Below, piece by piece: positions 53,838 through 61,199 of a DNA stretch of 64,000 bases (position 1 is its first letter; each line of letters opens with the position of its first letter). A program made the position numbers and the translations under genes. The notes beneath the pieces were generated by a model, which had not been told where the DNA came from, did not search any database, and worked only from the letters and a program-made list of their open reading frames with translations. Source of the DNA: an uncultured Pelagibacteraceae bacterium (GTDB taxonomy: Bacteria > Pseudomonadota > Alphaproteobacteria > Pelagibacterales > Pelagibacteraceae); assembly GCA_902601315.1 (NCBI GenBank), contig CACKMS010000001.1, positions 88,517-152,516 on the forward strand, given 5' to 3'.

Positions 53838-54230
53838 ATGGCTATATTTAACATGATAGAGGAAAGTGAAGCTAAAGGAAGAGTAAAAGAAATATTTGAG
53901 GACATTAAACAAAAAAGAAACATAAAATTTGTAAATAATTTTTGGAAAATGTTAGCTAATGAGCCAGATACTTTAGAGAGAACTTGGAATTCATTGCAGC
54001 AAGTAATGAAAAAAGGTGCTCTAGATGAGATGACAAAAGAATTAATTTATATTGCTGTTTCAATTACAAATAGCTGTGAGTATTGCATAAAATCGCACAG
54101 TTCTGCTGCAGTTAAGAAAGGAGCATCAAAAGATATGCTTGCTGAACTTAACGCAGTAGTTGGAATGGCAAATGAAACAAATAAATTGGTTGAGTCATAT
54201 CAAGTTAAAGTAGACGAAATTTATGAATGA
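53838..54230 (+). CDS. Carboxymuconolactone decarboxylase/AhpD-like protein
   Basis: ELIYIAVSITNSCEYCIKSHSSAAVKKGAS (CxxC...H) motif; strong AAGGAGGT SD. Confidence 0.88.
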   Translation: MAIFNMIEESEAKGRVKEIFEDIKQKRNIKFVNNFWKMLANEPDTLERTWNSLQQVMKKGALDEMTKELIYIAVSITNSCEYCIKSHSSAAVKKGASKDMLAELNAVVGMANETNKLVESYQVKVDEIYE

Positions 54231-54783: not shown

Positions 54784-55119
54784 CTATTTTGTGTTATCTA
54801 AGAGATTTACAATTAAAACACCCGTAATTATTAAAAATAAACCAAGGATGGTTGTAAAATTTGGAATTTGATTAAATTTTAAAACTCCTACCACACTTGT
54901 TGCTATAATACACAATCCTGCAAATGATGCGTAAGTAACTCCAACAGAAATTGATTTCATTACAAGTGAAAGTGTAAACATACAGCCAACAATTGTAATT
55001 GCAGTTAATATACTTGGAATTAATAGAGTAAAACCTTGAGCGCTTTTTGCAAAAGCGTTGGACGCTGTTCCTAAAATTACAGCAACAATTAAATATATAT
55101 ATGCATTTAAATTACTCAT
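54784..55119 (-). CDS. Small multidrug resistance (SMR)-like membrane protein
   Basis: 111 aa, four TM helices, ISVGVTYASFAGLCIIATSVVGVL motif. Confidence 0.85.
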   Translation of the reverse strand: MSNLNAYIYLIVAVILGTASNAFAKSAQGFTLLIPSILTAITIVGCMFTLSLVMKSISVGVTYASFAGLCIIATSVVGVLKFNQIPNFTTILGLFLIITGVLIVNLLDNTK

Positions 55120-55708
55120 TATTTTTTGACCAATTTATTGCATCTTCCATTCTATCATCTCCCCAAAATATTTCATTACCCACAACAAAAGAAGGACTAC
55201 CAAATATTTTATGTGATCTTGCACTTTCAGTGTTTTCTAAATATTTATTTTCTATTTCTTGAGAATTTGCATTATTTACAATTTTTTCTTTATCCAAACT
55301 AAGCTCATTACATATCTCAGAAATATTTGGCTCTGTAGCTGGTTCTTTTCCGTCTTGGAACCATCTCTTGTAAGTCAATCTTACATAATCTACTCCCCAG
55401 CCTTCCTTTAATCCTAGTATTGCAAGTTTATTTGCTAAATCAAATTCACTTAATGGGTAAGGCACAGGAGTTTTTGCAAAAAAACCATAACCTTTAGCTC
55501 TTCTCTCTATATCTCTCCACATATAATCAACTTTATTTTGTTTGTCTTTTGGAAAAGGTATGTTGTTCATTTCCTTCATTATTGCTCTCACACTAAATGG
55601 AACCCAATTAAATTTTACATTTAATTTTTTTTCAACATCTAATATCCTAGCAACTGTTAGATAGGTATAAGTACTTCCAATTGAAAAATAAAAATCAACT
55701 TTTTCCAT
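55112..55708 (-). CDS. DsbA-family 2-hydroxychromene-2-carboxylate isomerase-like protein
   Basis: VDFYFSIGSTYTYLT, FNWVPFSVRAIM, KIFGSPSFVVGNEIFWGDDRMED. Confidence 0.9.
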   Translation of the reverse strand: MEKVDFYFSIGSTYTYLTVARILDVEKKLNVKFNWVPFSVRAIMKEMNNIPFPKDKQNKVDYMWRDIERRAKGYGFFAKTPVPYPLSEFDLANKLAILGLKEGWGVDYVRLTYKRWFQDGKEPATEPNISEICNELSLDKEKIVNNANSQEIENKYLENTESARSHKIFGSPSFVVGNEIFWGDDRMEDAINWSKNNE

Positions 55709-55724
55709 TACTTATATTAACCTA

Positions 55725-55946
55725 TTATTTTGTGATTTTATCTACAATTTTTTTTACTAAAGGAGCAACAATTGAGGTTGCTATCATTGCAACTGGAAAA
55801 CTCACAGACCATGCAGTTATAAATCTATTAAAATAATCTTTGTCAAAGCCAGTGTTAATATAGGTTATTAGGAGAGTCATCATGAAACTCATCCCACATC
55901 CCATTAAAACTATAAATAATAGGTTTGAGTATTTTTTTGAAAACAA
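55725..55946 (-). CDS. DUF2798-like two-TM membrane protein
   Basis: 73 aa, two TM helices, FMMTLLITYINTGF...RFITAWSVSFPVAMIA. Confidence 0.75.
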   Translation of the reverse strand: MFSKKYSNLLFIVLMGCGMSFMMTLLITYINTGFDKDYFNRFITAWSVSFPVAMIATSIVAPLVKKIVDKITK

Positions 55947-55971: not shown

Positions 55972-56292
55972 TTATTTGTTCATCGGGGTTGCACCAGTTT
56001 CAAGTGCAAATACTTTACCATCTTTAAATTTAAAAACAGCCATTACTGCTTCTTTATTTCCATCATTAAATGTAACAAATGCGTGTTCAACACCAATTTC
56101 ATCATTTTCATAAATAACTCTAACTTTATCTCTATTGATATCTCCACTCATTGCCCATTTTACTACATCGTCTTTTTTTAAAACAGTTCCTGATTTATGC
56201 ATCGTAAAAGTATAATCGTCATGAATTATATCTCTTAATGCTGCCTCATCTTTACTCTCCATGGCTTTATTGTATTTAGCTAAAATTGACAT
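55972..56292 (-). CDS. NTF2-like / SnoaL-like small protein
   Basis: 106 aa, KYNKAMESKDEAALRDIIHDDYTFTMHKSGTVLKKDDVVKWA; SD AAAGGAG. Confidence 0.75.
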   Translation of the reverse strand: MSILAKYNKAMESKDEAALRDIIHDDYTFTMHKSGTVLKKDDVVKWAMSGDINRDKVRVIYENDEIGVEHAFVTFNDGNKEAVMAVFKFKDGKVFALETGATPMNK

Positions 56293-56311
56293 TTTTATTC
56301 TCCTTTATTTT

Positions 56312-56635
56312 TTATTTTCCTGGTTTAACTACACTATTAGCTGCATTAGCTGCATTCGTAAATGCTTTGTTATAATCAATTACCTCATGGACCATTAAAT
56401 CTTCCATTAGGCCAGAATTTTTAAAAGCTATTTTTAAGGCAACAGCTTGTTCATATTCTCCTTCCACGCAAGAAATTACATCAAATCTGCCTCTTACCCA
56501 CTCGTAAGAAATAAGTTTTAAACCAGCGGCCTCTGTTGCCTTTTTTGTAGAAGCGAATCTGTCTGCAGTTGGTTCATTCTGCATTCTCTTCATTAACTCT
56601 CCACTTATTTTACCTATTAAATAAAATTTTGCCAT
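56312..56635 (-). CDS. GYD-domain-like small protein
   Basis: 107 aa; GLKLISYEWVRGRFDVISCVEGEYEQAVALKIAF; SD AAAGGAG. Confidence 0.65.
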   Translation of the reverse strand: MAKFYLIGKISGELMKRMQNEPTADRFASTKKATEAAGLKLISYEWVRGRFDVISCVEGEYEQAVALKIAFKNSGLMEDLMVHEVIDYNKAFTNAANAANSVVKPGK

Positions 56636-56938
56636 TTATTCTCCTTTAATTATTATTCCATTTGATAAAGCGTTATCTAGACGGATTTTTTTTATTGGTT
56701 TGTATTCTTCAGATTTATACCACTCTTGAGCTTTCTCATAACTAGGAAATTTGATTACTATTGTTCTTGGGTGCTCCCAATTTCCCTCTATTAATTCAAA
56801 ATCTCCACCTCTTACAATATATTCTGCCCCAAATTTCTCTGCGATTGGTTTTACTTTTTCAATATATTCTTTGTAATTATCAGGGTTTGTAATTTTAATA
56901 TTAAAAATTACGTAACCAGTCATTATCTGAAATTTCAA
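56636..56938 (-). CDS. DUF1330-like (dimeric alpha/beta barrel) protein
   Basis: GYVIFNIKITNPDNYKEYIEKVKPIAEKFGAEYIVRGGDFELIEGNWEHPRTIVIKFPSYEKAQEWYKSEEYKPI; start could be 56938 (TTG) or 56923 (ATG). Confidence 0.88.
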   Translation of the reverse strand: MKFQIMTGYVIFNIKITNPDNYKEYIEKVKPIAEKFGAEYIVRGGDFELIEGNWEHPRTIVIKFPSYEKAQEWYKSEEYKPIKKIRLDNALSNGIIIKGE

Positions 56939-56969
56939 TATGATGGATTAACAATTTCAATATTTTTTT

Positions 56970-57260
56970 TTACAGATCCACTTTAGATAAATCATACAAC
57001 TGAGCATTCTCTACACATTCCGCATAGATAGCTTTTGCTGTAGGATTTTTTCCCGTTACAAAATCTTTCATTCCTTCTTCATTATGAACAGAAACTTTAA
57101 ATAACATACCACTTTTATCTGGTATCATTGCTCCAACAGTTTTTTCTGGATATGCAACACTTTTTCTAACACCCATACCTTCATCTGATTGCATCCATCC
57201 CATGAAAGTATCTAATTTACCTTCTTTTATTTTAAGATGTACTAACATTTCCTTTTCCAT
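56970..57260 (-). CDS. Small dimeric alpha/beta-barrel-like protein, unknown function
   Basis: 96 aa, MLVHLKIKEGKLDTFMGWMQSDEGMGVRKSVAYPEKTVGAMIPDKSGMLFKVSVHNEEGMKDFV; SD AAAGGAGG. Confidence 0.6.
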   Translation of the reverse strand: MEKEMLVHLKIKEGKLDTFMGWMQSDEGMGVRKSVAYPEKTVGAMIPDKSGMLFKVSVHNEEGMKDFVTGKNPTAKAIYAECVENAQLYDLSKVDL

Positions 57261-57284
57261 TTATAGCCTCCTTTTTTTGTTAAT

Positions 57285-57554
57285 TTAATCTGAGCAAATG
57301 CTCATTACTGTAGTCTCTTGTTTATGGCCAGATTTCTCAATTACTTTTGCATTCTCTGTATTCTGCATAAATTTTTGCATAGTGTCTGATGCTGGTGTTT
57401 CCATTACAATATGTACCTTATTTGGATTTTCTAATTCATGACCAACGTAAATAGTTTTGATTCCTGCCGCTTCTCTTGGACCAGAATGTTCATCAAACAT
57501 TTTTTTCCAATGAGTCCAGTCTTTTACCTCAAAATTTCCAACCACTTTTACCAT
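57285..57554 (-). CDS. Small dimeric alpha/beta-barrel-like protein, unknown function
   Basis: MVKVVGNFEVKDWTHWKKMFDEHSGPREAAGIKTIYVGHELENPNKVHIVMETPASDTMQKFM; start moved to 57554, preceded by GGGGAGAGT. Confidence 0.6.
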   Translation of the reverse strand: MVKVVGNFEVKDWTHWKKMFDEHSGPREAAGIKTIYVGHELENPNKVHIVMETPASDTMQKFMQNTENAKVIEKSGHKQETTVMSICSD

Positions 57555-57591
57555 TTTACTCTCCCCACACACCAGCAAAATCAATTGTTGC

Positions 57592-57975
57592 TTATTTCTT
57601 CATTGCATTGAACATACTAAGCGTATCATCAAAGGTCATCATAACTTTAGTTTTTCCTTCATCGCTAACTTCAAAATAATGACCAAACATAGTATCCATG
57701 TTGTCAGCTGTCGCATGTACTCTAACAAATACTTTATTTCCTTCACTGATCATGTCTAAAATTTTTAAATGAAAATTTGGCCATGTAGCCGGAATTTTTG
57801 ACATCGCACCCATCATAGCTTGTTTACCTTTGTGAACTCCTGACAATGGATGGACACCTTCTTTACCAGGAAATGTCCATACAATATTGTCATCGATCAT
57901 CTCATTAAAAAAAGTTTCCATATCCCCTTTACCAAAAAGCTCGTATGCTTTTCTCGTTTGCTCTTTTACGTCCAT
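57592..57975 (-). CDS. SnoaL/NTF2-like protein
   Basis: RKAYELFGKGDMETFFNEMIDDNIVWTFPGKEGVHPLSGVHKGKQAMMGAMSKIP. Confidence 0.85.
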   Translation of the reverse strand: MDVKEQTRKAYELFGKGDMETFFNEMIDDNIVWTFPGKEGVHPLSGVHKGKQAMMGAMSKIPATWPNFHLKILDMISEGNKVFVRVHATADNMDTMFGHYFEVSDEGKTKVMMTFDDTLSMFNAMKK

Positions 57976-58004
57976 AAAATATTCCTTTCGAAGTTAATTA
58001 TTTA

Positions 58005-58481
58005 TTAATAAGTATATTCTCCACTCATCTGATTCATTGAGTGAGCCATTCCAGCTTTACCTTTAAGATTTTGTCTACTTGAAAATCCTGTACCTGAAAT
58101 ATTTTCATATTTACCAGTTCCACCAATAATAACAAAATCTCCAGAGCCACCAACGCCGCCAGTTCCTTTACCTTTATAATTTATAAATACTTTTTCCCCG
58201 TCATTTAGATAAAATGTGCACATTCCTGTTTCATCATCAAATTTACCTGCAGTTAAAGTAAGCCCTCCAATGCAATGCATGGTAGATTTATCAAATATAC
58301 TTCCATCTTCTTTGTCTGAAAGTCCAGCATTACCATCATAAGTTATACTCATATTGCCATTACCAGCATTCATAACATTTACTTCCCATGAACCCATTCC
58401 ACTTGCATTAAACTTTCCTGTCTCTGCTAACAAGTTAGAGGTAAATAGTGTAAAAAAAGTTAATATTATTATTTTTTTCAT
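58005..58481 (-). CDS. Small secreted protein, unknown function (Gly-rich, beta-rich)
   Basis: Signal peptide MKKIIILTFFTLFTSNLLAETG from ATG at 58481 (SD AAGGAG); mature part GKGTGGVGGSGDFVIIGGTGKYENISGTG. Confidence 0.75.
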   Translation of the reverse strand: MKKIIILTFFTLFTSNLLAETGKFNASGMGSWEVNVMNAGNGNMSITYDGNAGLSDKEDGSIFDKSTMHCIGGLTLTAGKFDDETGMCTFYLNDGEKVFINYKGKGTGGVGGSGDFVIIGGTGKYENISGTGFSSRQNLKGKAGMAHSMNQMSGEYTY

Positions 58482-58491
58482 AGTTTTCTCC

Positions 58492-58776
58492 TTACATTTT
58501 TGCAAAATCCATTGTTTGTGAACATTCCTCAGAGACTGTGTCAAAAAAATTATTCATATCTCCAAGTTGATCAATAATTGCTTGTGGACTTTCGGCTTGC
58601 CACTTACAAAATACCTTCATCGAGTCGCCTGCACCCATCATTGTCATATGACATACAGCCTTTTCTCCAGTTACTCCTTTTTTTAAATCCTCAGGGGATG
58701 TTGAACTTACAACTTCATGAAATTTTTTTTTCATCTCCTCAGACTTAAATATATGCGTTGCTAAATAGTCTTTCAT
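58492..58776 (-). CDS. Small conserved-looking protein, unknown function
   Basis: 94 aa; SD TAGGAGGG upstream of ATG; first gene of the small-gene run. Confidence 0.65.
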   Translation of the reverse strand: MKDYLATHIFKSEEMKKKFHEVVSSTSPEDLKKGVTGEKAVCHMTMMGAGDSMKVFCKWQAESPQAIIDQLGDMNNFFDTVSEECSQTMDFAKM

Positions 58777-58814
58777 TATAACCCTCCTAACGAGTTTAAT
58801 TAATTATAAAGAGA

Positions 58815-58838
58815 TATTGTAAACTTTATATTACAATA
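58815..58838. promoter_or_regulatory. Perfect 8-bp dyad TATTGTAA-N8-TTACAATA upstream of small-gene operon
   Basis: Read directly; lies between the cysK 3' end and the first small gene. Confidence 0.4.
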
Positions 58839-58852
58839 CTGGTATGTGATTT

Positions 58853-59854
58853 TTAGATCCAACTAGGAGTAGGTAGGCCTTTTTCTTGTAAAAATTTTTT
58901 GTTAAACATCTTTGAGTTGTATTTATCAGATTTGTCACAGAGAATTGTTACAATAGTTTTTCCTGGACCAATTAATTTCCCAAGTCTAATTGCTCCAGCA
59001 ATATTTACACCACAACTAGTGCCTAAGCTTAATCCCTCTTCTTTTATTAGATTATAAAGCAAAGGCAAAGACTCGTGGTCATCAATTGAGAATGCTCCAT
59101 CTATTTTTGCTTCAGCAAAATTTGCTGTTACTCTACTGGATCCAATACCTTCAGTTATTGAACCACCTTCGGATTTTAATTCACCATTTTCAATGAAATT
59201 GTATAAGGCAGAACCTGATGGATCAGATAAGTAAATTTTTATATCTTTGTTTTTTTCTTTCAAATAACTACTTATCCCTCCAATTGTTCCACCTGTGCCT
59301 GATGCACAAACAAATCCGTCTACCTTACCTTCTGTTTGATCCCATATTTCAGGTCCGGTTGTTTCATAATGACCTCTAGCATTTGCAGTATTGTCAAATT
59401 GGTTTGCCCAGACTACTCCATAATTATTTGAGTTTTTTAATTCTTCTGCAAGTCTACCTGCAACTTTTACATAATTGCCATCATCACTGTAAGGTTTTGG
59501 TGGAACTAACCTTAAATCTGCTCCTATATTTATCAAAGTATCTTTTTTTTCTTGTGTTTGATTATCGTTCATAACGATTGTTGTTTTATAACCTAAAGAA
59601 TTTCCAAGAAGACATAAACCTATTCCAGTATTTCCAGCTGTTCCTTCAACAATCATTCCACCTTTTGAAATTAATTTTTTCCCCTCTGCATCTTTGATAA
59701 GTGCTAATGCTGCTCTATCCTTAACCGACCCTCCTGGGTTTAAGTATTCTGCTTTTCCGTAAATATTACATCCAGTAATCTCTGAGGCTGCTTTTAGTTT
59801 AATTAGAGGAGTGTTTCCAATTGATTGAAGAAAATTATCTTTGCTATTGATCAT
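58853..59854 (-). CDS. cysK: Cysteine synthase
   Basis: [62 protein letters not shown]. Confidence 0.92.
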
Positions 59855-60539: not shown

Positions 60540-61199
60540 ATGTTAAAAATAAATAGTATGTGTCCTGATTTTCAGGCTAAAACTACAGAGGGAGATATCT
60601 CTTTTCACGAGTGGTTAGGTGACAGCTGGGGTGTATTATTTTCACATCCAAAAGATTTTACACCAGTTTGTACTACTGAACTTGGAGCTTTAGGTTTAAT
60701 GAAAGATGAGTTCGACAAAAGAAACGTGAAAGTGATAGGTCTTAGTGTAGACGGAGTTGATGACCATAATAAATGGTTAGATGATATAAAAGATGTGTCA
60801 GGTTCAAAACCAAACTATCCAATAATTGCAGACGAAGACCTAAAAGTTGCTAAATTATTTAATATGTTGGAAGGTGATGCAGGAACAACATCTATGGGTA
60901 GAACTGCTGTTGATAATGAAACAGTTAGAACCATTTTTGTAATAAGACCTGATAAAAGAATTGGTTTATATCTTACTTACCCAATGGCAACAGGACGAAA
61001 CTTTTTGGAAATTTTGAGAGCAATAGATTCAATGCAATTAACAGCAAAACATAAAGTAGCTACTCCTGCAAATTGGAAAAAAGGTGAAGATGTAGTTATT
61101 TTACCAGCTGTTAAAGATGATGAAGCGAAAAAAATATATCCAAATGGATGGGAGACGGTTAAACCCTATTTGAGAAAGGTACCAGATCCTTCTAAATAA
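60540..61199 (+). CDS. 1-Cys (Prx6-type) peroxiredoxin
   Basis: LFSHPKDFTPVCTTELGAL, VDGVDDHNKWLDDI, FVIRPDKRIGLYLTYPMATGRNFLEILRAIDS. Confidence 0.95.
   Translation: MLKINSMCPDFQAKTTEGDISFHEWLGDSWGVLFSHPKDFTPVCTTELGALGLMKDEFDKRNVKVIGLSVDGVDDHNKWLDDIKDVSGSKPNYPIIADEDLKVAKLFNMLEGDAGTTSMGRTAVDNETVRTIFVIRPDKRIGLYLTYPMATGRNFLEILRAIDSMQLTAKHKVATPANWKKGEDVVILPAVKDDEAKKIYPNGWETVKPYLRKVPDPSK

Follow-up and report, generated by a model that had tools for sequence, protein, structure and literature searches.

A variable array of small genes at a fixed site downstream of cysK in SAR11 genomes

Eight small genes in the 1.2-Mb genome of an uncultured Pelagibacteraceae bacterium very probably belong to a combinatorial array, in which short genes are exchanged singly at one fixed site of the SAR11 genome. 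The reading that we favor, at a probability of roughly 45% with this architecture included, is an exchangeable array of proteins that handle or detoxify small molecules. The locus was analyzed in a stretch of 64,000 nucleotides (the window); its features are listed from cysK downstream.

cysK, 58853–59854, minus strand: constant upstream boundary.
Leader, 58803–58846, minus strand: element separating cysK from the first gene of the array, a probable promoter/operator with the palindrome TGTAA-N8-TTACA.
A, 58492–58776, minus strand: 94 aa, distant SCO4226-like (DABB-type) protein; sub-threshold match to PF14026, E = 0.011.
B, 58005–58481, minus strand: 158 aa, signal peptide and eight-strand barrel of the allene-oxide-cyclase/dirigent type; model pLDDT 87.8.
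C, 57592–57975, minus strand: 127 aa, SnoaL_2 protein; PF12680, E = 1e-11.
D, 57285–57554, minus strand: 89 aa, DUF3764 protein; PF12594, E = 4e-11.
E, 56970–57260, minus strand: 96 aa, DABB/ABM fold, array core member without a Pfam match; model pLDDT 95.3.
F, 56636–56923, minus strand: 95 aa, DUF1330 protein, ATG at 56923, no Shine–Dalgarno (SD) sequence; PF07045, E = 9e-32.
G, 56312–56635, minus strand: 107 aa, GYD-like protein; PF08734, E = 1e-5, below the cut-off.
H, 55972–56292, minus strand: 106 aa, SnoaL_2/DUF4440-type protein, array core member; PF12680, E = 7e-7.
u, 55725–55946, minus strand: DUF2798 membrane protein, the usual downstream neighbor; PF11391, E = 8e-21.
v, 55112–55708, minus strand: DsbA-fold protein, a variable neighbor present in 50 loci; PF01323, E = 8e-28.
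w, 54784–55119, minus strand: SMR-type transporter, a nearly constant boundary on the downstream side, often present twice (156 copies in 112 loci).

The sequence-only reading had proposed a tight run of eight small minus-strand genes, and eight such ORFs of 89–158 codons, separated by spacers of 0–49 nt, were confirmed at positions 55972–58776. Eight consecutive genes of 80–160 aa are improbable in the window (p = 0.0006 by shuffling of its 68 genes). All eight are under strong purifying selection, with dN/dS between 0.03 and 0.14 (0.05 for A), and are therefore real, maintained genes. The DUF1330 family of F is also present elsewhere in the same genome.

The array region was taken from ~160 loci, 125 of them with cysK, and its ORFs were called and clustered; the genus sample comprised 399 genomes, drawn from a larger set. 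Throughout the 116 complete loci, which belong to the same SAR11 genus, the site is fixed, with cysE–cysK upstream and DUF2798, DsbA-like, and SMR genes downstream. The suggestion that the block runs on into the DsbA-family and SMR genes was borne out, the DUF2798 gene lying before them. The SMR assignment of w was taken over from the earlier reading; in relatives, the gene is frequently a tandem pair, which suggests a two-subunit SMR pump. The DsbA-fold protein v lacks a CxxC near its N-terminus (FYFSIGSTYTYL) and is probably of the HCCA-isomerase/kappa-GST type. At the downstream border of the array, one SAR11 lineage set (L030, L031, L033, L062, L070, and similar loci) carries an insertion of TRAP-type transporter, EamA-like, and isocitrate-lyase-like genes (clusters 33–36 and 42, named by eye) near the SMR/DsbA genes. 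In L064, L078, L087, and L143, a relative of G (GYD) lies outside the array, beside a gene for an aldehyde dehydrogenase (cluster 22).

Gene content at this site is variable, in keeping with the earlier description of an accessory-like block. The 116 complete loci hold 72 ordered gene lists of 2–12 genes (median 8), built from ~19 small families, in a collection where some genomes were entered twice and many loci were chosen for having E. H occurs in 106 of the 116 complete arrays, counted as a single-linkage cluster; such clusters merge subfamilies, and that of H holds at least two. Additional families include a secreted 124-aa protein (5), cupins (37 and 41), a glyoxalase (32), a cupredoxin (20), and a TPR protein (18), together with a probable membrane protein (7) and two probably DABB-like families (8 and 25). 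A short version, 5-7-H, was found in a complete 1.34-Mb genome, where the leader is matched with one mismatch.

Comparison of close and distant loci points to exchange gene by gene. In the nearest relatives of the window's locus, with cysK at 90–94% DNA identity, D or G is absent or a different C is present, and these relatives also differ in whether they have D, G, 5, and an additional H-37 pair. Conversely, loci whose cysK is only 76–82% identical carry copies of C (86–93%), D (88–92%), G (85–91%), and E (86–91%) that are highly similar at the DNA level, with neighbors far less alike. These high-identity blocks stop at gene ends; for instance, one block spans 1879–2266 and the C gene within it 1880–2263. 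Judging by these identities, the genes are transferred between lineages one at a time. The locus thereby shares with flexible genomic islands both variable content at a conserved site and transfer between lineages. The sequence-only reading had envisaged one conserved pathway, which did not hold, since relatives keep the site and swap genes singly; a fixed multistep pathway is unlikely for the same reason. The gene-neighborhood comparison that it had proposed across SAR11 gave a divided answer, with a fixed site and mostly kept order but a combinatorial gene set. Neither this array-like variability nor the leader, nor the recurrence in further alphaproteobacterial orders, had been noticed in the sequence-only reading.

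The mean consistency of pairwise gene order is 0.90 over 86 pairs and is absolute for most pairs, and this 90% consistency disfavors random insertion. It suggests recombination between arrays through shared genes rather than capture by an integrase. In the window, no repeat family of the attC-like kind sought was found between successive genes, and a search near the array gave no tRNA, so that integrase-type or attC-type capture is unsupported. No tyrosine integrase was recognized among the profiled window genes or the inspected array clusters, the flanking genes having been profiled in part.

A leader of 44–48 nt follows the cysK stop codon in most loci, independent of which gene comes first, with the consensus CATAcCaGnnnTGTaAyAAAannnTTAcatTttta...TAnnaT. 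Its 91 distinct versions are invariant at the CATA, C, TGT, and TTA positions, and it is absent or degenerate in 11 loci. A full match occurs once in each of seven genomes, at the array wherever coordinates could be compared, and this single match per genome indicates that the leader is not a genome-wide operator. Palindrome columns 16 and 23, the inner pair, covary as C-G or T-A in 54 of 79 versions, against 30 in shuffles that ignore relatedness. We favor a promoter/operator as the probable role of this element. The dyad and T-rich stretch could instead form a weak cysK terminator, although 21 of the 79 versions break the dyad. Promoter and terminator scans of the region gave no clear excess over shuffles, and Rfam returned no family there. 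Across loci, array genes are spaced by a median of 12 nt, with 96% of spacers under 60 nt; this spacing and the single leader suggest co-transcription.

The array had also been singled out for unusually strong SD sequences. With start codons picked by one simple rule for every gene, the mean SD pairing energy is -7.95 kcal/mol in the array and -2.5 in 60 other window genes (Mann–Whitney p = 5e-4). Seven of the eight genes have an SD; the exception is F, which was entered with a start at 56920 and lacks one from 56920 and 56923 alike. Among the fetched loci, energies of -6 or below were found for 59% of 858 array-family genes and 17% of 1095 flanking genes. The contrast stands against the other window genes at large, but F lacks an SD, that of C is moderate, and the island is not unique in this respect: neighboring peroxiredoxin and AhpD-type genes have strong SDs too. 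The SDs of the AhpD-type gene (window positions 53838–54230) and the peroxiredoxin gene (60540–61199) match those of the array genes in strength. In this genome, genes with a strong SD may form a high-expression or stress class.

As had been proposed, DABB- and NTF2-type folds are found among the products, and one of them, B, is secreted to judge from its signal peptide. Pfam cut-offs were passed by F (DUF1330), C and H (SnoaL_2), and D (DUF3764); G (25.6 versus 31.4 bits, GYD) and A (16.3 versus 28.5 bits, SCO4226-like) fell below them, and Pfam gave no family for B or E. NCBIfam profiles added nothing to these assignments. Searching the solved structures by sequence yielded no significant match for E, A, or B, and fold comparison alone was informative. 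Structure prediction, the check called for earlier, placed E in the ferredoxin-like alpha-beta fold of ABM/DABB proteins and B among the dirigent-type barrels. Foldseek matches of the E model (E-value about 3e-4, TM 0.5–0.6) are LsrG, olivetolic acid cyclase (OAC), methylmuconolactone isomerase, and ABM proteins; an OAC-type mechanism is not indicated, because E has no invariant His. The best fold matches of B are dirigent proteins, the PloI4 cyclase, and allene oxide cyclase, at sequence identities of about 7–16%. For both models, TM-scores of about 0.5–0.6 support a fold and not a function. The conserved residues of H (D26, H32, R58, E62, H70, and E98) include polar side chains typical of what is probably an active pocket. 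Dimeric alpha-beta barrels, SnoaL/NTF2, dirigent-type barrel, cupin, and glyoxalase folds are typical of cofactor-free small-molecule handling; they are too versatile to name a chemistry, and several of the families are DUFs.

From clustering alone, we infer a common function of the array members. Independent or loosely interacting handlers of small molecules fit single-gene swapping better than a fixed pathway does, and our first choice is that they detoxify or process foreign small molecules, because an SMR pump and a DsbA-fold protein without CxxC lie nearby. Under this proposal, (i) the leader would be a regulated promoter giving one transcript; (ii) the products, in the cell and the periplasm, would bind, isomerize, or oxidize reactive or hydrophobic small molecules from seawater; (iii) the SMR, DUF2798, and DsbA-type neighbors would export or finish the products; and (iv) genes would be swapped by homologous recombination, with the shared E, F, H, cysK, and SMR genes as anchors. 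The set of genes kept would differ from cell to cell because the molecules encountered differ.

Members of the array also recur in other lineages. Of 80 sampled HIMB59-order genomes, 36 have E; in the class sample it was found in only two HIMB59-family genomes besides G000, and in the phylum sample in G000 alone. The HIMB59 family carries E-37-8-H, E-37-H, or E-H operons at a site unrelated to that of the SAR11 array, and its sister family carries E-7-SMR. In the E tree, the sister family falls inside SAR11 with starred support, which is consistent with transfer between orders. Elsewhere in alphaproteobacteria there are clusters of the H-D-F-G-C type, such as D-H, D-F-H plus G, and C/D/B; in G680, a second array is made up of C, B, D, and DABB-like genes. 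Of the sampled genomes outside SAR11, four have D; it is less than 5 kb from H in all three that also have H, and no array partner was seen in the fourth. A HIMB59-family locus (L245:8494–11703) holds a second small-gene array, with two C-type SnoaL genes, two D-type DUF3764 genes, a secreted barrel resembling B, and additional DABB-like genes; its site is unrelated to that of the E-H operon in this genome. In the sister family, two tandem membrane proteins of 123–124 aa with strong SDs lie near E-7-SMR (L213:8177–8945). Relatives of E and H were not found in IMG/VR viral contigs, and phage carriage is therefore unsupported. So is a known anti-phage defense system, PADLOC giving one weak partial match only.

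Three other explanations bear on the same observations. A permissive site downstream of a promoter might gather unrelated short genes with good SDs and no common function. The several folds among the members, membrane and secreted proteins included, would suit such a site, as would the genome-wide recombination in SAR11 described in one study (PMC12374537). This explanation is rather unlikely, given that these families again form clusters in other orders, at unrelated positions, and that the member set is narrow, mostly of small-ligand folds, and kept in order. It is also unlikely that the array is a substrate-range island, in which each gene adds a single step or substrate to the use of dissolved organics (aromatic, polyketide-like, or terpenoid) as food. 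ABM, muconolactone-isomerase-type, and SnoaL folds do occur in catabolic routes, LsrG and methylmuconolactone isomerase are among the structures nearest to E, and a TRAP-type transporter stands beside the array in some loci (clusters 33–36). However, oxygenases, dehydrogenases, and CoA ligases are not regular members, most arrays have no adjoining uptake system, and single-gene swaps would break multistep routes. Least probable is a stress or redox module of small, abundant proteins protecting against peroxide, metals, or reactive electrophiles: strong SDs common to the array, peroxiredoxin, and AhpD-type genes, the cupredoxin (20), cupins (37 and 41), and glyoxalase (32), and the distant resemblance of A to the nickel-responsive SCO4226 speak for it, but content this variable would be unnecessary in a general stress set, and the AhpD-type and peroxiredoxin genes lie outside the array on the opposite strand.

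SAR11 is a very abundant ocean bacterium. A fixed site where nearly every lineage has its own mix of strongly translated proteins for small ligands would rank among SAR11's most variable functional loci, and would suggest that the open ocean poses varied chemical challenges. We propose, tentatively, that a previously undescribed type of locus is common to streamlined marine alphaproteobacteria: a promoter-led array for small-molecule handling that keeps its order while its genes are exchanged singly, giving a personalized repertoire of chemical defense or sensing through integrase-free gene swapping. The array offers concrete proteins for ligand tests, E and H first.

Our literature searches for the locus or the family set found no description of either. 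Like integron gene-cassette arrays, the locus consists of single-gene units behind one leader or promoter-like element; unlike them, it has no conserved intergenic repeat in the window and no integrase recognized among the genes profiled and array clusters inspected, and its order is conserved. Polyketide DABB/ABM proteins and SnoaL cyclases (OAC, WhiE-ORFI, and SnoaL) have folds like those of E and C/H, but no polyketide synthase was seen near the array, sequence identity is low, and E lacks an invariant His. The barrel of B resembles allene oxide cyclase/dirigent proteins (PloI4, DUF3224) in fold and differs from them in its signal peptide and low sequence identity (about 7–16%). Close counterparts, too, are the flexible or replacement genomic islands of SAR11, such as HVR2 between the rRNA genes (PMC7318151); the array site is not named in the available portions of the SAR11 island literature (PMC7318151, PMC12374537). 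Array and islands alike have a fixed site, content that varies among relatives, and exchange by recombination, which is probable for the array. Unlike those islands, the array comprises 2–12 genes of narrow, small-ligand folds, exchanged singly behind a conserved leader and in a largely kept order.
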